Below, in pieces: positions 1,166 to 19,806 of a DNA stretch of 64,000 nucleotides (its first letter is position 1; each line of letters begins with the position of its first letter). Source of the DNA: Candidatus Rokuibacteriota bacterium (GTDB taxonomy: Bacteria; Methylomirabilota; Methylomirabilia; Rokubacteriales; CSP1-6); assembly GCA_003220225.1 (NCBI GenBank), contig QHRU01000051.1, forward strand, positions 1-64,000. The letters are read 5' to 3'. Made by a program: the position numbers and the translations under genes. The notes under the pieces were generated by a model. It was not told the DNA's origin. It did not search any database and saw only the letters and a program-made list of their open reading frames with translations.

Positions 1166-2251
1166 ATGGACTACGGACTCTTCACGATGCCGTCACATCC
1201 ACCCGAGCGCAGCCTGTACGACGGGCACCAGTGGGACCTCCAGCAGCTGCGCTGGGCGGACGAGCTGGGGTTCAGCGAGGCGTGGATCGGTGAGCACCAC
1301 ACGGCGCCGTGGGAGCCGCACCCGTCGCCCGATCTCCTCGTGGCCCAGGCGCTACTACAGACCGAGCGCATGCGCATCGGCCCCGGCGGCTTTCTCATGC
1401 CGTACCACCACCCCGCCGAGCTCGCCAATCGCGTGGCGATGCTGGATCACCTCGCCCAGGGGCGACTGAACTTCGGCGTGGCGGCGAGCGGGCTGCCGAG
1501 CGACTGGGCCATGTTCAACGTCGACGGCAATGCCGGGCAACACCGTGAGATGACGCGCGAGGCGCTCGAGATCATCCTGCGTCTCTGGAGCGACGAGCCG
1601 GAGTTCGATCACAAGGGCAAGTACTGGCACGTCACCAAGACCGGCACGATGATCGGCACCCTCAAGCCGCACATCGTGCCGTTCCAGAAGCCTCACCCGC
1701 CGATCGGCGTGGCCGGCGTCAGCAAGGGCTCCGACACGCTGAAGCTCGCCGGCGAGCGCGGCTTCTGGCCGATGAGCCTCAACCTGAACCCCGCCTACGT
1801 CGGCAGCCACTGGGAGTCCGTGGAGCTTGGCGCGGCGCGCACCGGCCGGACGCCGAAGCGCGCGGACTGGCGTCTCGTGCGCGAGGTCTTCATCGCCGAC
1901 ACCGACGCGGAGGCGATGCGACTCTCGGCCGGCGGCATGATGGGCCGGATGATGCGGGAGTACTTCCTGCCGCTCCTCGCGTTCTTCCAGTTCACCGAGT
2001 TCCTGAAGCACAAGCCCGACGTGCCCGACTCCGACGTCACGCCCGAGTACTGCGCCAAGCACAACTGGCTGGTGGGCTCGCCGGCCACGGTGACCGAGCG
2101 GCTCCACGCGATCTACGAGGAGGTCGGCGGCTTCGGCACGCTGTTGCTGTTCTGCTTCGACTACGTGGACAACCCCAAGGCGTGGCGGCACTCGATGGAG
2201 CTGCTGGCGCGCGAGGTCATGCCGCGCTTCAAGAACCTGCTGCCGAAGTGA
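1166..2251 (+). CDS. LLM-class flavin-dependent oxidoreductase (luciferase-like monooxygenase family)
   Basis: A 361-residue luciferase-fold enzyme that probably uses reduced FMN and oxygen on a small organic substrate. The N-terminus MDYGLFTMPSHPPE, the WADELGFSEAWIGEHH segment and the PYHHPAELANRVAMLDHL segment are characteristic of the limonene 1,2-monooxygenase-like branch. The gene starts 7 nt after the E1 alpha stop and overlaps the next gene by GTGA, so the three plus-strand genes probably form an operon. The substrate cannot be inferred. Confidence 0.88.
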   Translation: MDYGLFTMPSHPPERSLYDGHQWDLQQLRWADELGFSEAWIGEHHTAPWEPHPSPDLLVAQALLQTERMRIGPGGFLMPYHHPAELANRVAMLDHLAQGRLNFGVAASGLPSDWAMFNVDGNAGQHREMTREALEIILRLWSDEPEFDHKGKYWHVTKTGTMIGTLKPHIVPFQKPHPPIGVAGVSKGSDTLKLAGERGFWPMSLNLNPAYVGSHWESVELGAARTGRTPKRADWRLVREVFIADTDAEAMRLSAGGMMGRMMREYFLPLLAFFQFTEFLKHKPDVPDSDVTPEYCAKHNWLVGSPATVTERLHAIYEEVGGFGTLLLFCFDYVDNPKAWRHSMELLAREVMPRFKNLLPK

Positions 2252-2955
2252 GCGCGCGGCGTGTCGTCGTCTTCCTCTGCGCGGTGATGGCGATGGGCGC
2301 GATCCCAGACGCGCGAGGCCAGACGCCGGCGTCGCCTCCCGTCGAAGGCAACATCTATTCCGTCACCTACGTCGAGGTCATGCCTCCGTCCGCGACAGCA
2401 GCGCTCGCGGTCCTCAAACGTTACCGTGAGGCGGCCAGCCGGGAGGACGGAAATCTAAGGTCCGAGGTGGCGCAGCGCATCGGCGAGCCCCACGAGTTCG
2501 TGGTCCTCGCGGTGTGGAGGGACCGGGCCGCGTTCGAGGCTCACGCCAAGGGGACAAGCTCGACGGACATGCGGGAGAGGATCGCGGCGATCCGCAACGC
2601 GCCGACCGACGAGCGCGTGCATACCGCCCTCTCGGTCGGCCGCCTCGAGTCGAAGATCACGCACGGGGCCATGTACGTCGTGACCCACGTCGACGTCATT
2701 CCCCCGCGCAAGGACGACGGCATCGCCGCCGTCAGGCAGCTCGGGGACGACAGCCGCCTGCACGAGGGCAACCTGCGCTTCGAGGTCGTGCAGCAGATCA
2801 ATCGTCCGAATCACTTCACGGTCGTGGAGATCTGGAAGGACGCGAACGCGACGGAAGCCCACTCCATGGCGCCCGCGACGCGCCGGTTCCGCGACAAGCT
2901 CGCGCCGGCGACGGGCGCCCTCTACGACGCACGGAAGTACAAAGCGGTCGACTAG
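2248..2955 (+). CDS. secreted protein with two antibiotic-biosynthesis-monooxygenase (ABM)-like domains
   Basis: The GTG at 2248 overlaps the stop of the LLM gene (GTGA) and gives a 235-residue protein with an N-terminal signal peptide (hydrophobic VVVFLCAVMAMGA, cleavage probably near DARGQ). Two repeats follow, at roughly 30-112 and 128-222. Each starts with a beta strand of the type Y-x-V-T-x-V-x-V-x-P-P and has a GNLR-x-EV motif and a later VVL/E-x-W strand, as in dimeric alpha/beta-barrel ABM or heme-degrading-like domains. This looks like an internal duplication that makes the usual dimer in one chain. Catalysis is not established. Confidence 0.75.
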   Translation: MSARRVVVFLCAVMAMGAIPDARGQTPASPPVEGNIYSVTYVEVMPPSATAALAVLKRYREAASREDGNLRSEVAQRIGEPHEFVVLAVWRDRAAFEAHAKGTSSTDMRERIAAIRNAPTDERVHTALSVGRLESKITHGAMYVVTHVDVIPPRKDDGIAAVRQLGDDSRLHEGNLRFEVVQQINRPNHFTVVEIWKDANATEAHSMAPATRRFRDKLAPATGALYDARKYKAVD

Positions 2956-2957
2956 GT

Positions 2958-3218
2958 TTACGTGATGAACCGCCGCCCGGCGTCGGTCAGCGTCGCCGTT
3001 CTCGTTGCCGCGTCGTAGTCGATCAACCCTTCGGCCACGAAGCTCTCCATCATTTTCGAGAAGCCCTGGTGCGCGATCAGGAACCTCTCCGAGCTGTGCT
3101 GGTGCATCTCGCCGAGGGTGGCCGCGGCGCCTTCCCGCTTCGCCAGCCACGCGAGCACCCCCTTGCGCGCCTTCTCGAAGTACGCCTTCTGCCGCTCCTC
3201 GGATGCTGGCTCCGTCAT
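2958..3218 (-). CDS. small winged-helix-like protein of unknown function
   Basis: An 86-residue protein starting MTEPASEERQKAY, with a predicted helical first half, a GFSKMMESFVAEGLIDYD helix and a short RTATLTDAGRRFIT hairpin at the end. The pattern helix, helix, then LTxAGRRF resembles the C-terminal winged helix of small transcription factors or accessory domains. It is the last gene of the pentose-phosphate run and starts 17 nt after gnd. It converges with the ABM gene, leaving only two bases between the stops. A regulatory role for the island is a guess. Confidence 0.6.
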   Translation of the reverse strand: MTEPASEERQKAYFEKARKGVLAWLAKREGAAATLGEMHQHSSERFLIAHQGFSKMMESFVAEGLIDYDAATRTATLTDAGRRFIT

Positions 3219-13774: not shown

Positions 13775-14548
13775 ATGATCAGCGTCTTCGCGCTCTGCAC
13801 GGGCTCCATCGAGCTGGACCGCGCCAGCATGCTGTCCGACCTGGCGCCGGGGCAGCCGTGGACCGTGCCCGTCCTGAGCTTCCTCGTCGACCACCCGCGT
13901 GGCCGCCTGCTGTTCGACACCGGCGTGCACTGCCAGGCGCGCCTCGATCCGGTGGGTCGGCTCGGCCCCGAGCGGGTCAAGCGCCTGACCGTGAAGTCGA
14001 AGGAGGGTGACGACGCGGTGCCGCAGCTCGCGCGGCTCGGGCTGAAGCCCGACGACGTGCGCTACGTGGCGAACTCGCACCTGCACTTCGACCACTGCGG
14101 CGGCAACGAGTTCTTCCCGCGCGCGACTTTCCTGGTGCAGCGGCCGGAGCTGGACGCCGCGCGGCGCCCGGGCTTCGTGCCGGGCTACAGCCCGAGCCCC
14201 ATCGACTTCGAGCACCCGCTCGACTACCAGATGCTCGACGGCGAGCACGATGTGTTCGGCGACGGCGCCGTCGTGCTGATCCCAACCTACGGCCACACGC
14301 CCGGCCACCAGTCATTGTTCGTGCGTGCGGGCAAGCAGGCGCAGATGGTCTGCGCCTCCGACGCCTGCTACACGCGCGACAACATGGACCGCGACGTGCT
14401 GCCGAAGATCCTGTGGGACGCCTCGGTCATGCGCGACTCGCTGGCCACGCTGCGCACGCTGCGCGACCAGGCGGGGGCCACGATGTTCTACGGCCACGAT
14501 CCCGCGCAGTGGCAGACGATGCCGCGCGTGCCGGCGCCGGTGATCTGA
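13775..14548 (+). CDS. MBL-fold metallohydrolase (N-acyl-homoserine-lactonase-like)
   Basis: A 257-residue zinc hydrolase with the HLHFDH motif (102-107), further ligands in GHTPGHQS and SDACYT, and a late YGHDPAQW. The layout, with VPVLSFLVDHP before LFDTG, fits the AttM/AiiA-like lactonase branch. A lactone or ester substrate is therefore likely, but quorum quenching should not be assumed. Only two bases separate it from the Rieske gene, so the two are probably co-expressed. Confidence 0.82.
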   Translation: MISVFALCTGSIELDRASMLSDLAPGQPWTVPVLSFLVDHPRGRLLFDTGVHCQARLDPVGRLGPERVKRLTVKSKEGDDAVPQLARLGLKPDDVRYVANSHLHFDHCGGNEFFPRATFLVQRPELDAARRPGFVPGYSPSPIDFEHPLDYQMLDGEHDVFGDGAVVLIPTYGHTPGHQSLFVRAGKQAQMVCASDACYTRDNMDRDVLPKILWDASVMRDSLATLRTLRDQAGATMFYGHDPAQWQTMPRVPAPVI

Positions 14549-14550
14549 CG

Positions 14551-15864
14551 ATGCTGACCCGCGAGGAGAGCGCGCTGTTGACCCTGGTCGGGCCCGCGAC
14601 GCCGATGGGCGAGCTCATGCGGCGCTACTGGATCCCCGCGCTGCTCTCGGCGGAGCTCGTCCCGGCCGGCCGCGTCAAGCGGGTGCGGCTCCTCGGCGAG
14701 GATCTCGTCGCCTTCCGCGCTCCGGACGGGACGGTCGGACTGCTCGGGGAGTTCTGCTCGCATCGCGGCGCCTCGCTCTACTTCGGACGCAACGAAGCGG
14801 CCGGCCTGCGCTGCGTCTATCACGGGTGGAAATACGGCGCCGACGGGCAGTGCGTGGACATGCCGAACGAGCCGCCGGCGAGCAGCTTTACGGAGAAGGT
14901 TCGCCATCCCGCCTATCCCTGCGCCGAGCGCGGTGGCGTCGTCTGGACGTACATGGGCCCGACCAGTCCTCCGCCCGCGTTGCCCGAGCTCGAATGGGCG
15001 CTGGTGCCGGACGCGCACCGCTTCGTCTCGAAGTTCTACCAGGAGTGCAACTATCTCCAGGCGCTCGAAGGCGGCATCGACCCGGCGCACATCTCGTTCC
15101 TGCACGGCGTGCTCGACGCGGGTGACGAGGCGTTGCGCGATCTGGACCGGGCGTCGGCCGGGTTCGCCCTGGCCGCGCAGCTCGAGAAGGCGCCGCGGAT
15201 CGACGTGGTCGACACGCCGTACGGCGCGCTGATCGGTGCCGAGCGCGACGCGCGAGACGGCATGGTCTACTGGCGCATCACGCAGTTCCACCTGCCGTTC
15301 CACACCATGCCGCCGACCGATCCCAAGCCCGATCCCGTCATGCACTCGCACATCTTCGTGCCGGTGGACGACGTGAACCTCGTCAACTGGTGCATCTCGT
15401 GGCATCCCACGCGCGCGCTGACCGAGGCCGAGCGCAGCGCGATGAGCAGCGGGGCGAGCATTCACATCCTGGACTATGCCCCCGCCACCAGCGAGGCCTA
15501 CGGCGACATCCGGCCCGCCGCGCACGCGCGGAACGATTACCGGTGCGACTGGGACGCGCACGAGACGCGCAAGTTCTTCGGCGTCCCCGGCGTCGGCGTG
15601 CAGGACAAGGCGATCACGGAGAGCCAGCGGCCCATCGTCGACCGCACGCGCGAGCGCCTCGGCAAGGCCGACACCGCGATCATCAGGATCCGCAAGATCC
15701 TCATGGATGCGGCGCGCGCGCTGCGGGATCGCGGCACGCCGCCGCCGGGCCTGGCGTCGGCGTCGTTCCTGATCCGCCCCGCCTCCGTCCTCCTGCCCAA
15801 GGACGTGGCCTGGGTCGACGGCGCCCGCGCGCAGCTGGTCGCGCGCCCGACTACCGCGGCTTGA
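14551..15864 (+). CDS. Rieske non-heme iron oxygenase, monomeric phthalate-dioxygenase-like
   Basis: A 437-residue terminal oxygenase. The Rieske 2Fe-2S ligands are Cys69/His71 (CSHRG) and Cys88/His91 (CVYHGW), and the mononuclear iron site is in GGIDPAHISFLHG. It belongs with phthalate 4,5-dioxygenase-type enzymes that hydroxylate aromatic acids using a separate reductase. A paralogue lies at 55842-57119. No dedicated reductase adjoins either one. Its last 14 bases overlap the convergent binding-protein gene. Confidence 0.9.
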   Translation: MLTREESALLTLVGPATPMGELMRRYWIPALLSAELVPAGRVKRVRLLGEDLVAFRAPDGTVGLLGEFCSHRGASLYFGRNEAAGLRCVYHGWKYGADGQCVDMPNEPPASSFTEKVRHPAYPCAERGGVVWTYMGPTSPPPALPELEWALVPDAHRFVSKFYQECNYLQALEGGIDPAHISFLHGVLDAGDEALRDLDRASAGFALAAQLEKAPRIDVVDTPYGALIGAERDARDGMVYWRITQFHLPFHTMPPTDPKPDPVMHSHIFVPVDDVNLVNWCISWHPTRALTEAERSAMSSGASIHILDYAPATSEAYGDIRPAAHARNDYRCDWDAHETRKFFGVPGVGVQDKAITESQRPIVDRTRERLGKADTAIIRIRKILMDAARALRDRGTPPPGLASASFLIRPASVLLPKDVAWVDGARAQLVARPTTAA

Positions 15865-17389
15865 GCCGCACGTCCTCCAGCGGCGCCGACCACGGGTAGG
15901 GGTCGATGAGCATCAGCGCGGGCTCCGCCACGCGCGGCCCGAGCCCGCTCGGCCAGATGAACTCATAGAGCGGGCCGAACCTCACGCGGTCGTAGAGCAG
16001 CTGCTGGATCTGGTGGAGCAGCGCTTCCCGCTTTCGCCGGTCCGTCTCGCGCGCCTGTTGCTTGTAGAGCGCGTCGACGTCGGGATCGGCGCCGCGGGCG
16101 TACGCGCCGTCGCTCTGCACCGCGTCGGCCAACCGCGTGGCCGCGTTGCCGAAGTTCGCCATGGTGCACATGCAGACCCCGCGGAGCTTCTTGCCGCCCC
16201 AGGCCGACTGGAAGGCCGCGCGCTCCATCGTGCGCAGCCTCATCCGGATTCCCACCGCGCCGAAATATCCGATGATCGTCTCGCCCGCCGACCAGTAGGG
16301 CGGATAGGGATAGAAGTCGCCGCCGTCGAAGCCGTTGGGATAGCCCGCCTCCGCCAGCAGCTGCTTCGCCTTCGCGGGATCGTAGGCGTACGGCTCGAGG
16401 GGCAGCGCGAAGTCGAACGTGCGCGGGACCATGCTCCCCGTCGGCCGAGAGGCGCCCAGCGTCTCGGCCTCGCTGAGCCCGCGGCGATCGACGGCATGGT
16501 TCGCGGCGAGCCGCACGCGCCGGTCGTGCCACGGCGACTTGGGGTCCCACTGGTCGAAGAAATCCAGGTAGTGGACGCCGATCGCGCCCGAGAAGCCCAG
16601 CCGGATCGCGGGATCGCGCCTGAGCTCGAGCGCGGACGGCGCGTCGAGCATGTACGCGACGTCGACCTCGCCGGTCTTCAGCATGGCGGCCCGCGTGGTG
16701 GGGTCGGGGACCGTCTTGAACACCAGCCGCTTCACCGACGGCACCTTGCGCCAGTGACCTTCGAAGGCTTCCATCACCAGCTCCACGCCGGGCGTGTGGC
16801 TCACGAACTTGTAGGGCCCGAGCCCGACGGGCTGTTTCTTGAAGCCCTCGTCGCCGACCTTCTCGACGTACTTCCGGGGCACGATCCAGCCCGCGCCGGT
16901 CGCCAGCGTTCCGTAGAACGCCATGAAGTCGGGGAAAGGCTCGTGGAGATGGAAGCGCACGCGGGAGGCGCCGACCACCTCGACCTCCCTCACCCGGTCC
17001 TTGAGGACCTTGCCGACCTTGGACCGCTGGAAGCTGAACTTCACGTCGTCGGCGGTGAAGGGGTCGCCGTTGTGGAACTTCAGGCCCTCACGCAGCTTGA
17101 ACTCGTAGACGCGCTGATCCGCGCTCACCGTCCACGACTCCGCCAGGCTCGGCGTCATGAGATTGCCCGGCATCGGCTTCACCAGCGCGTCGTGCAGCGC
17201 GTAGAGCACCCAGAACGGCGTGAGGAAGCCCGCGGTGACCTCGCCCGGATCGAACCAGGCCGGCGCCAGGGTCACGTACAGCGCCCAGCGCATCTCGCCT
17301 TCCGGCTTCGTCGGCGCCGGCCTGGGCTGAGCCCGGGCGTCGGCCACGAGGGCGGCCACGATCACGACGGCGATCGCGAGGTGCTTCAT
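15851..17389 (-). CDS. peptide/nickel-type ABC transporter substrate-binding protein, orphan
   Basis: A 512-residue periplasmic family-5 binding protein: signal peptide (hydrophobic AIAVVIVAALVADARAQ), AESWTVSADQRVYEFKLREG, GPYKFVSHTPG, and the late DPAKAKQLLAEAGYPNGF motif. No permease or ATPase adjoins it. Its ATG overlaps the cyclopropane synthase stop (ATGA), so it is the last gene of the lipid operon. Its C-terminal half closely resembles the binding protein at 63268-64000 (AEAGYPNGF, RLRTMERAA, QARETD-RKREAL and GPRV-EP). It may use a distant transporter or carry a lipid-related ligand. Confidence 0.88.
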   Translation of the reverse strand: MKHLAIAVVIVAALVADARAQPRPAPTKPEGEMRWALYVTLAPAWFDPGEVTAGFLTPFWVLYALHDALVKPMPGNLMTPSLAESWTVSADQRVYEFKLREGLKFHNGDPFTADDVKFSFQRSKVGKVLKDRVREVEVVGASRVRFHLHEPFPDFMAFYGTLATGAGWIVPRKYVEKVGDEGFKKQPVGLGPYKFVSHTPGVELVMEAFEGHWRKVPSVKRLVFKTVPDPTTRAAMLKTGEVDVAYMLDAPSALELRRDPAIRLGFSGAIGVHYLDFFDQWDPKSPWHDRRVRLAANHAVDRRGLSEAETLGASRPTGSMVPRTFDFALPLEPYAYDPAKAKQLLAEAGYPNGFDGGDFYPYPPYWSAGETIIGYFGAVGIRMRLRTMERAAFQSAWGGKKLRGVCMCTMANFGNAATRLADAVQSDGAYARGADPDVDALYKQQARETDRRKREALLHQIQQLLYDRVRFGPLYEFIWPSGLGPRVAEPALMLIDPYPWSAPLEDVRLKPR

Positions 17390-18288
17390 GCCTCCCTCTC
17401 GTACAGATGCTCGCGCGTGCGCGGCGCGCGACCGACGGCCGGGTCGCCGTGCTTGCGGCTCAGGACCTGGTAGAGGCCGATGGAGCCGTCCTCGAAGGCG
17501 ACCACCGAGCACGTCAGGTAGAGCAGCCAGGTTCGATACGTGCGCTCGCCGGCCACGGCGCGCGCCTCGTCCGCCCGCTCGCGCAACCGCTCGACCCACT
17601 GCCGGCAGGTCCGCGCGTAATGCAGGCGCAGGCCCTCGACGTCCACGATCTCGAAGCCCGCGCGCTCGATCTCGGTCAGCGTCTGGCTGAGTCCCGCGAG
17701 ATCGCCGTTCGGGAAGACGTGGCGATACAGGAACTCGGTCTGGCTGGTGCGCGTCCAGTGGAACTCGTGGACGATCCCGTGGTTCAGATAGAGGCCGCCG
17801 TCCTCGAGGCGGGCGCGCACGCCCCCGAAGAACGCCGGGTAGTTCGGGATGCCGACGTGCTCGATCACCCCGACGGCGGCGATCTTCTGGTAGCGGGCGC
17901 TCGCCGGCAGATCCCGGTAGTCCAGGTGCTCGACCCGACAGCGGTCTTCGAGCCCTTCTTTCCGGATGCGCTCGGCGGCATAGACGGCCTGCGCCTGCGA
18001 CAGGGTCACGCCGTGCGCGCGCACGCCGTAGTGCTGCGCCGCCCAGATCGACAGGCTGCCCCACCCGCACCCGACGTCGAGCAGGGTCTCGCCGGGCTGC
18101 AGCTCGAGCTTGCGACACACGAGATCGAGCTTGTCTCGCTGGGCCTGCTCGAGCTTGCCGTCGGGGTCCCGGTAGTACGCGCAGGTGTAGACCATGAGCG
18201 GATCGAGGAACAGCGCGTAGAACTCGTTGGACACGTCGTAGTGATGGGCGATCGCCTTCGCGTCCGCCTCGCGGCTGCGGCGCTTCAC
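17386..18288 (-). CDS. cfa: catalytic (SAM methyltransferase) part of a split cyclopropane-fatty-acyl-phospholipid synthase
   Basis: A 300-residue SAM-dependent methyltransferase that modifies phospholipid acyl double bonds. HHYDVSNEFYALFLDP, the SAM motif LLDVGCGWGSL (69-79) and YFG-type late segments mark the Cfa family. The family is normally about 380-420 residues; the missing N-terminal domain is encoded separately at 19414-19758. Start GTG 18286 follows GGGAGG and overlaps the flavoenzyme stop (GTGA). The product could be a cyclopropane or a methyl-branched chain. In the known 10-methyl fatty acid pathway (tmsAB) a Cfa-like methyltransferase also pairs with a flavin oxidoreductase. Confidence 0.9.
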   Translation of the reverse strand: MKRRSREADAKAIAHHYDVSNEFYALFLDPLMVYTCAYYRDPDGKLEQAQRDKLDLVCRKLELQPGETLLDVGCGWGSLSIWAAQHYGVRAHGVTLSQAQAVYAAERIRKEGLEDRCRVEHLDYRDLPASARYQKIAAVGVIEHVGIPNYPAFFGGVRARLEDGGLYLNHGIVHEFHWTRTSQTEFLYRHVFPNGDLAGLSQTLTEIERAGFEIVDVEGLRLHYARTCRQWVERLRERADEARAVAGERTYRTWLLYLTCSVVAFEDGSIGLYQVLSRKHGDPAVGRAPRTREHLYEREA

Positions 18289-19412
18289 GACGCCACCTCC
18301 CGCATCCCGAAGATGCGCCCGAGGACGACGTGACGCCGCGTCGCTCCCGTCCCCAGCGCGGCGCGCACCAGCAGGCGCGCGCACGCCTCGGGCAGCCTGG
18401 CGAGCTGGCGGCCGAGCCAGCCGGCTTCACCCGGTCCGTACCGGCGGACGATCGCGGTCGCGTACGACTCGAGGGCCGCGCCGCGCCGCAGGTGAGCCTC
18501 GACGGCCTCCGCGGCAAGGCGTCCGCTCCGGATCGCCGGCCCGATCCCTTCACCGCTGAGGTCTCGCGCCAGGCCCGCGGCGTCGCCGACCAGGCAGAAC
18601 CGATCGCCCGCGAGTCGCCGCGGCGCGCGGCGACGCACGACGTAGGCGTGGCCGCGGAACGGCTCCAGCGGGAAGTCCACGGGCAGCCGTCCCGACGCGC
18701 GCAGAGCGTGGACGAGGGCGTCACGCCGCCGCGGCAGGTCCACGCCCGGTCCGACGACGCAGCCGATGCCGATGTTGAGGACGTCCGCCTTGGGGAAGTA
18801 CCAGCCGTAGCCGGTGAGATCGGGCTCGACGTAGAGCTCCGGCGCCTCGAAGAGCTCCCCGAGCGCCTCGACCCGATCGGATGGCAGCCGCGTCTCACTC
18901 TCCTGGGCGATCACGACCTCCTCACGCTCGGAGACGTCACCGAACGCTCCCGCGACCGGACATCGGTGGCCTCCCGCCCCGATGACGACCGAGGCCTCGA
19001 ACGCGCCATGCTCGCTCACGACGCGGATCCCGTCCGCATCGCGGATCACTGCCGTCACGCGGGCGCCCTCTCGCACGTCCGTGCCGGCCGCCCGCGCGCG
19101 GTCCAGGAGATAGTGGTCGAACTCCCGGCGGACGATGCCGTAACTGGCCGGCGTCCGCCAGCGGGTCTCGTGGCGGGCCCCCTCGAACTCGAACCGGCAG
19201 GCGGAGAAGGCCTGGATGGTGAGCGGGTACTTGTCCGGATCGACCTCGACGTCGGCCATCGCCTCGGGCGTGACCCAGCCCGCGCACACCTTCACGCGCG
19301 GAAAGACGGCGGCGTCCAGGAGGAGCGGCCGCAAGCCCGCCCGGGCCAGCCTCCACGCCGCCGTGCTGCCACCCGGTCCGCCGCCGACGACGATGACGTC
19401 GTGTCGAGGCAC
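18285..19412 (-). CDS. geranylgeranyl-reductase-family FAD-dependent oxidoreductase
   Basis: A 375-residue flavoprotein with the FAD motif GGGPGGSTAA near 10, the CAGWVTPEA active-region loop, and the late GDAAGLARDLSGEGIGPAIRSG segment of the geranylgeranyl reductase / halogenase-like superfamily. Such enzymes reduce prenyl or other lipid double bonds. It lies between the two halves of the split Cfa synthase, one base after the first and overlapping the second. A step acting on the methylenated or methylated acyl chain is a sensible inference. Confidence 0.85.
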   Translation of the reverse strand: MPRHDVIVVGGGPGGSTAAWRLARAGLRPLLLDAAVFPRVKVCAGWVTPEAMADVEVDPDKYPLTIQAFSACRFEFEGARHETRWRTPASYGIVRREFDHYLLDRARAAGTDVREGARVTAVIRDADGIRVVSEHGAFEASVVIGAGGHRCPVAGAFGDVSEREEVVIAQESETRLPSDRVEALGELFEAPELYVEPDLTGYGWYFPKADVLNIGIGCVVGPGVDLPRRRDALVHALRASGRLPVDFPLEPFRGHAYVVRRRAPRRLAGDRFCLVGDAAGLARDLSGEGIGPAIRSGRLAAEAVEAHLRRGAALESYATAIVRRYGPGEAGWLGRQLARLPEACARLLVRAALGTGATRRHVVLGRIFGMREVAS

Positions 19413-19413
19413 G

Positions 19414-19758
19414 TCAGCCTCGGACGAGCGCCAGGAGGATTCGGACCCGATCTACGAACGAGACGCGCAGGTCCTCGATCGAGTTCGCGAGCCTCATGGC
19501 CGCGAACAGGTCACCCTCGATGTCGATGTCGCCCTCGACATAGGCCTCGGCGAAATTGAGCGGTGAGGGATCGCGCACGAGACGGCTGAAGGTCTCCGGG
19601 CGGTGCAGGACGACCGTGCATGCCGGCGCGCCGGCTCCGAGCGTCACCGGCGCTCCGTCCCAGAGACGGAAGGCGACCCCGCTCGGGAGGTGACCGAAGA
19701 GGCGACGGAGGATCGGCACCGCACGCTGTGCGCTGATTCCCACCAACGGCGCGGACAC
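19414..19758 (-). CDS. stand-alone N-terminal domain of cyclopropane-fatty-acyl-phospholipid synthase
   Basis: A 114-residue protein that matches the N-terminal domain of Cfa synthases, not any enzyme core: FRLWDGAPVTLG, then LNFAEAYVEGDIDIEGDLFAA, then a helix ending FVDRVRILLALVRG. Together with the 300-residue catalytic protein two genes downstream it adds up to a normal Cfa length. The GTG at 19758 is chosen because GAGGGG lies 8 nt upstream; an earlier GTG at 19791 is in frame. It is first in a three- or four-gene coupled operon. In full-length Cfa this domain is thought to contact the membrane and the partner subunit. Confidence 0.8.
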   Translation of the reverse strand: MSAPLVGISAQRAVPILRRLFGHLPSGVAFRLWDGAPVTLGAGAPACTVVLHRPETFSRLVRDPSPLNFAEAYVEGDIDIEGDLFAAMRLANSIEDLRVSFVDRVRILLALVRG

Positions 19759-19806
19759 TAGCAGAGCCCCTCGGCAGCCGCAAGCGCTCACCTGTACAAG
19801 ATGCTT

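Follow-up and report, generated by a model that had tools for sequence, protein, structure and literature searches.

Described pathways to 10-methyl fatty acids

10-Methyl fatty acids serve as lipid biomarkers. Among the described systems for their synthesis, the closest to the locus analysed here is the ten-methyl-palmitate operon tmpBA, known from Desulfobacter, Marinobacter and Thiohalospira (Blitzblau et al., PMC7791843). TmpB is a methyltransferase of the cyclopropane-fatty-acid synthase (Cfa) type that yields 10-methylene-palmitate in E. coli, and TmpA, which resembles archaeal geranylgeranyl reductases, is the presumed reductase; when tested in aerobic E. coli and in yeast, TmpA had no activity (PMC7791843). 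No demonstration of a TmpA-type reduction was found in the literature searched. The bfaAB/tmsAB genes of actinomycetes follow the same two-step logic, combining a Cfa-like methyltransferase with a flavin oxidoreductase (PMC5660069, PMC7791843), but BfaB is fused, and BfaA is an FAD-binding oxidoreductase of a family unrelated to the flavoenzyme encoded in our locus. The nearest precedent is therefore tmpBA, with its geranylgeranyl reductase (GGR)-like TmpA, rather than tmsAB, which an earlier note on this DNA had named.

A Cfa divided between two genes

The window, a stretch of 64,000 nucleotides from a 6.03 Mb Rokubacterial genome (G000), carries three genes encoded in the order CfaN, GGR, CfaC (Table 1). 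The CfaN stop is separated from the GGR start by a gap of 1 nt, and the GGR stop and the GTG start of CfaC overlap by 4 nt (GTGA), so that the junctions nearly touch or overlap, as originally described. The gene calls also agree with the coordinates given in the earlier note, including a GTG start of CfaN at position 19758, which is preceded by GAGGGG; a GTG at 19791, farther upstream, is a possible alternative start. The CfaC stop overlaps the gene of a solute-binding protein (SBP_bac_5) by 4 nt (ATGA), and this gene is probably co-transcribed with CfaC in the window. Elsewhere in the window, a gene for a Rieske-type oxygenase adjoins one with a metallo-beta-lactamase fold.

Table 1. Coordinates of the genes discussed, in the window unless another locus is named
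Feature	Position	Strand	Description
CfaN	19414..19758	-	Cfa lipid-binding N-domain, 114 aa; PF25371/DUF7884, E 4e-10
GGR	18285..19412	-	geranylgeranyl-reductase-superfamily FAD enzyme, TmpA kind, 375 aa; TIGR02032
CfaC	17386..18288	-	free-standing Cfa-type catalytic methyltransferase domain, 300 aa; PF02353, E 1.5e-90
SBP_bac_5	15851..17389	-	periplasmic solute-binding protein; PF00496, E 2e-73
Rieske-type oxygenase	14545-15864		LigXa-like C-terminal domain
Metallo-beta-lactamase-fold gene	13775-14548		
Desaturase, L034	8503-9240		fatty-acid desaturase; PF00487
Desaturase, L035	8847-9584		fatty-acid desaturase; PF00487
Second Cfa, L117/L210 (UBA3588)	2190-3003		E. coli-like Cfa

Both domains of a Cfa, the DUF7884 N-domain and CMAS, are present in the locus, but as separate proteins with the GGR gene in between. 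The match of CfaC to PF02353/CMAS spans positions 3-273 of 273, a complete catalytic domain. In comparison with E. coli Cfa, both the end of CfaN and the start of CfaC coincide with the linker between the two domains; the halves sum to 114 + 300 aa versus 382 aa in the E. coli enzyme. The domain matches (PF25371 and PF02353), the split point and the lengths thus bear out the initial proposal that the N-domain and the methyltransferase core are encoded apart and jointly make up one Cfa. The window genome contains no second Cfa-like gene, the next PF02353 match reaching only E 5e-6. All five active-site residues compared with E. coli Cfa (equivalents of C139, E239, H266, I268 and Y317), which make up the catalytic and bicarbonate-site residues of a Cfa-type methyltransferase, are kept in CfaC. 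These active-site residues fail to discriminate cyclopropane formers from methylene formers, and a cyclopropane product of CfaN/CfaC is possible. Cfa and CfaB synthases of known structure (6BQC, 5Z9O, 7QOS) share with the window's proteins the two domains and the active-site residues, but in the window the domains reside on two proteins, with a reductase gene between theirs.

The AlphaFold model of CfaN (pLDDT 85.5) resembles the N-domains of the Cfa structures 7QOS and 5Z9O as well as SCP2/UbiJ proteins (Foldseek probability 0.99-1.00, with TM-scores of only 0.36-0.50). The likeness to the lipid-binding UbiJ/SCP2 proteins is structural and moderate (TM about 0.4-0.5), whereas by sequence CfaN belongs to the Cfa N-domain family DUF7884; one related locus encodes an SCP2 protein instead. 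Within CfaN, a conserved segment, NFAEAYVEGDID, lines up with the one that touches the catalytic domain in fused enzymes, and for this reason CfaN probably still docks on CfaC. The same contact segment speaks against an improbable arrangement in which the same lipids are made, but the free N-domain mainly serves the reductase and CfaC acts alone, in the manner of the mycolic-acid cyclopropane synthases that lack an N-domain. Enzymes of the CmaA type do function without this domain (PMC11387697), and the gene order CfaC, SCP2-domain gene, GGR found in one locus (L301 of G1098) puts the lipid domain beside the GGR.

When E. coli Cfa was expressed as two separate domain proteins, its activity was lowered (PMC11387697). 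Something must therefore make up for the natural split between CfaN and CfaC, perhaps tight docking of the two or the GGR. Purifying selection acts on all three genes. The pN/pS of CfaN exceeds that of the other two in most comparisons; it lies at about 0.09-0.53 for the majority of pairs and reaches about 0.63 among those that have diverged most.

Distribution and gene order of the split set

To a search of 60 genomes of the order, with matches accepted at E up to 1e-40, 23 genomes, including that of the window, yielded a CfaC-like protein. Close homologs of CfaC (74-87% identity) are encoded in the window genome and in a further 20 from its family, and in all 21 the genes follow the order CfaN-GGR-CfaC, with mostly overlapping or near-touching junctions. 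In the named collection, 16 of the family genomes with the split set carry the name Candidatus Rokuibacteriota or Methylomirabilota. The distribution is patchy: several genomes of the family, including two of the window's own genus, lack the three-gene set, and CfaC is broken in L053. A genome of another family in the same order (G057, L055) encodes a fused Cfa followed by a GGR.

Searches centred on other phyla revealed split loci in a second taxonomic class, 13 complete and three cut by contig ends, with the same order CfaN-GGR-CfaC. These loci come from large, mostly GC-rich genomes (G215 and relatives), of the same phylum as a Zymogenaceae record (L147). Identity to the window's proteins is mostly 56-66% for CfaC and 47-58% for GGR. 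A permuted relative was found in G1098 (L301/L305), which belongs to the phylum of an Acidobacteriota record; here a gene for a free catalytic domain is followed by an SCP2-domain gene (PF02036, E 5e-7) and a GGR gene, with ends that touch, nearly touch or overlap.

The conserved three-gene order that the earlier note had suggested searching for is thus present in every family genome with this CfaC and in the 13 complete loci of the second class. According to the same note, an intact cfa in relatives, together with a layout unique to one assembly, would refute its reading. Instead, the layout is widespread, and the fused Cfas that accompany the split set in G030 and G050 are distant 42% paralogs belonging to another clade.

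In five related loci (L034, L035, L037, L038 and L053), a fatty-acid desaturase (PF00487, E 4e-17) is encoded directly downstream of CfaC, an arrangement consistent with an unsaturated acyl-chain substrate; no desaturase gene occupies this position in the window. The SBP_bac_5 gene was considered as a fourth member of the system and rejected, since it adjoins the set in none of the 20 related split loci; in L047, CfaC and a homolog of this gene farther downstream are about 1.5 kb apart.

Affinities of the flavoenzyme

The product of the gene between the two halves scores 177.3 bits against TIGR02032 (geranylgeranyl reductase superfamily), above the cut-off of 158.8, in agreement with its first description as a geranylgeranyl-reductase-type enzyme. 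It possesses the FAD motif and keeps the motifs GYxWxF(P/R)K and CAGW. Two features are invariant across the GGRs compared: the GYxWxF motif of the lipid cavity and the Cys known from geranylgeranyl reductases. The superfamily also includes monooxygenases, maturases such as QhpG and LodB, and halogenases, and no TmpA is known to carry out a reduction (PMC7791843), so that GGR might conceivably be a flavoenzyme that oxidises or inserts oxygen, either supplying the substrate or modifying the acyl chain further (to a hydroxylated or unsaturated form). We regard this as quite unlikely, given that the top score is to the geranylgeranyl reductase subfamily, that the motif and the Cys are invariant, and that a separate desaturase could supply the double bond in the five loci that encode one.

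In the GGR tree, a single clade (100/100) holds the window GGR and the GGRs encoded directly after fused Cfas; the remaining GGRs from the genome and phylum of the window fall outside it. Once sequences of the second class are included, the two split groups unite at 99/98. GGRs from L281-L284 and L335-L338, in genomes assigned to the phylum of a Gammaproteobacteria record, are nested in the split-type GGR clade, and no Cfa is encoded in the roughly 5 kb around them. Pairing with the window's type of GGR is seen in at least three Cfa lineages, which suggests a shared reaction in which a reductase of this type acts on the product of the Cfa-type enzyme. The third of these lineages is a sister group of E. 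coli Cfa, and its GGR partner is shorter.

The recurrence of this pairing is relevant to the simpler reading that CfaN and CfaC constitute a split but ordinary cyclopropane synthase, and that GGR is merely co-regulated and acts on a quinone or isoprenoid tail or another lipid. Several enzymes of the GGR superfamily indeed work on isoprenoids, and the nearest relatives of CfaC and CfaN are CfaB-like enzymes, in a clade with the Cfas of Methylophaga, P. aeruginosa pKLC102 and Rhodococcus. However, GGR clusters with Cfa-adjacent GGRs instead of the other GGRs of its genome, its gene lies between the halves in every split-set genome of the family, and Cfa-GGR pairs recur in several Cfa lineages; an ordinary cyclopropane synthase accordingly appears unlikely.

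Origin of the Cfa halves and relationship to tmpBA

Outside Rokubacteria, a Cfa is encoded directly upstream of the GGR in 59 of 64 loci (Acidobacteriota, Proteobacteria, Planctomycetes and others), and this Cfa is fused wherever the contig allows it to be seen. The 59 loci are labelled tmpBA-type by their architecture; the published TmpA and TmpB are known here by description and stand outside the trees. In the Cfa tree, 34 TmpB-type enzymes form a clade of their own (100/99). The split CfaC falls outside this clade, among CfaB-like enzymes with the Methylophaga, pKLC102 and Rhodococcus Cfas. In HMM comparisons, CfaN scores 82.7 bits against the N-domains of CfaB-like enzymes, 50.6 bits against those of TmpB-type enzymes (labelled by architecture) and 59.0 bits against those of other Cfas. 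Because the placement of CfaC and the scores of CfaN agree, both halves seem to derive from one CfaB-like enzyme. A chimera of a TmpB N-domain and the core of another Cfa receives no support from these scores.

The window locus and tmpBA are alike in that a Cfa-family methyltransferase and a GGR-like flavoprotein are encoded in one operon, the GGR being of the type encoded after fused Cfas. They differ in that TmpB is a single polypeptide and the gene order is B then A, whereas the window's Cfa is interrupted at its linker and the GGR gene separates the parts; furthermore, the window's Cfa core comes from a Cfa lineage other than that of TmpB, the latter being labelled by architecture and not by the published sequences. 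A broken-up tmpBA was rejected as the origin of the split set, because CfaC and CfaN both group with CfaB-like enzymes; their lineage points to a separate, reorganised Cfa-GGR pairing. Decay of a tmpBA operon into rearrangement leftovers that have no joint function would be in keeping with the activity lost on splitting E. coli Cfa (PMC11387697), with the broken CfaC of L053 and with the absence of the set from several family genomes. This account is very improbable: all three genes are under purifying selection, two separate lineages have domains of full length and junctions that overlap, and the Cfa halves fall outside the TmpB lineage. In L117/L210, a second Cfa gene is located downstream of the tmpBA-type pair (Table 1).

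At the residue preceding the catalytic Cys, in the column of E. coli Ser138, every GGR-linked Cfa has Thr, and each of the 22 informative other Cfas of the first set has Ser. Among enzymes with PDB structures, Ser is present in CmaA1, PcaA, MmaA2 and MmaA4, and Thr in MmaA1 and UmaA. Plasmid-borne Cfas of Halomonas (L344) and Burkholderia (L346) carry Thr without annotated GGR neighbours; the Halomonas record has no gene annotation around its Cfa, and the Burkholderia record shows no flavoenzyme neighbour. Thr was therefore set aside as a product-switch residue and is treated as a weak correlate, since MmaA4 and the two plasmid-borne enzymes break the pattern. A link between the residue in this column and product type is possible but unproven.

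Proposed function and implications

We propose, with a probability of roughly 0.65, that the three genes form one lipid-modifying system in which CfaC together with CfaN methylates an acyl double bond and GGR reduces the resulting methylene to a methyl branch. CfaN, an SCP2-like lipid-handling domain, would dock on CfaC and present acyl chains of membrane phospholipids, as the N-domain does in a normal Cfa. We infer that the two proteins together would methylate a double bond of the membrane acyl chain to give a methylene group, and that GGR would saturate the new C=C by flavin hydride, yielding a 10-methyl-type fatty acid with its methyl branch in mid-chain. The free CfaN subunit may be shared by the methyltransferase and the reductase, handing the intermediate on. 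A more elaborate scenario, which we put forward only tentatively and consider rather doubtful, is that such a free lipid-presenting subunit serves a methyltransferase and a geranylgeranyl-type reductase in common, with the reactive methylene lipid handed between them on one carrier. This complex would have evolved independently of tmpBA, in another Cfa lineage; a related rearrangement is present in G1098.

The suggestion in the earlier note of an undescribed route to a modified membrane lipid holds in part. The locus is best read as a modified-lipid pathway; the chemistry is probably no undescribed route, because tmpBA already pairs the Cfa-type TmpB with the GGR-like TmpA. What is new relative to the literature searched, in which no description of a split CfaN-GGR-CfaC arrangement was found, is the split gene organisation and the Cfa lineage.

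No lipid data for Rokubacteria or Methylomirabilota were found in the literature searched that bear on the product. Methylomirabilis is reported to contain 10-methyl fatty acids. In seven genomes of family f10 in the window's class (G080, G081, G084, G085, G090, G093 and G094), no PF02353 protein was detected at E up to 1e-15; if these genomes represent Methylomirabilis, 10-methyl fatty acids there need another enzyme.

The split set offers a differently organised example from soil bacteria, built on a separate Cfa lineage, and provides new enzymes for testing the TmpA reaction. It is also a natural counterpart of the laboratory domain separation that lowered the activity of E. coli Cfa, with the split at that point kept in two lineages.
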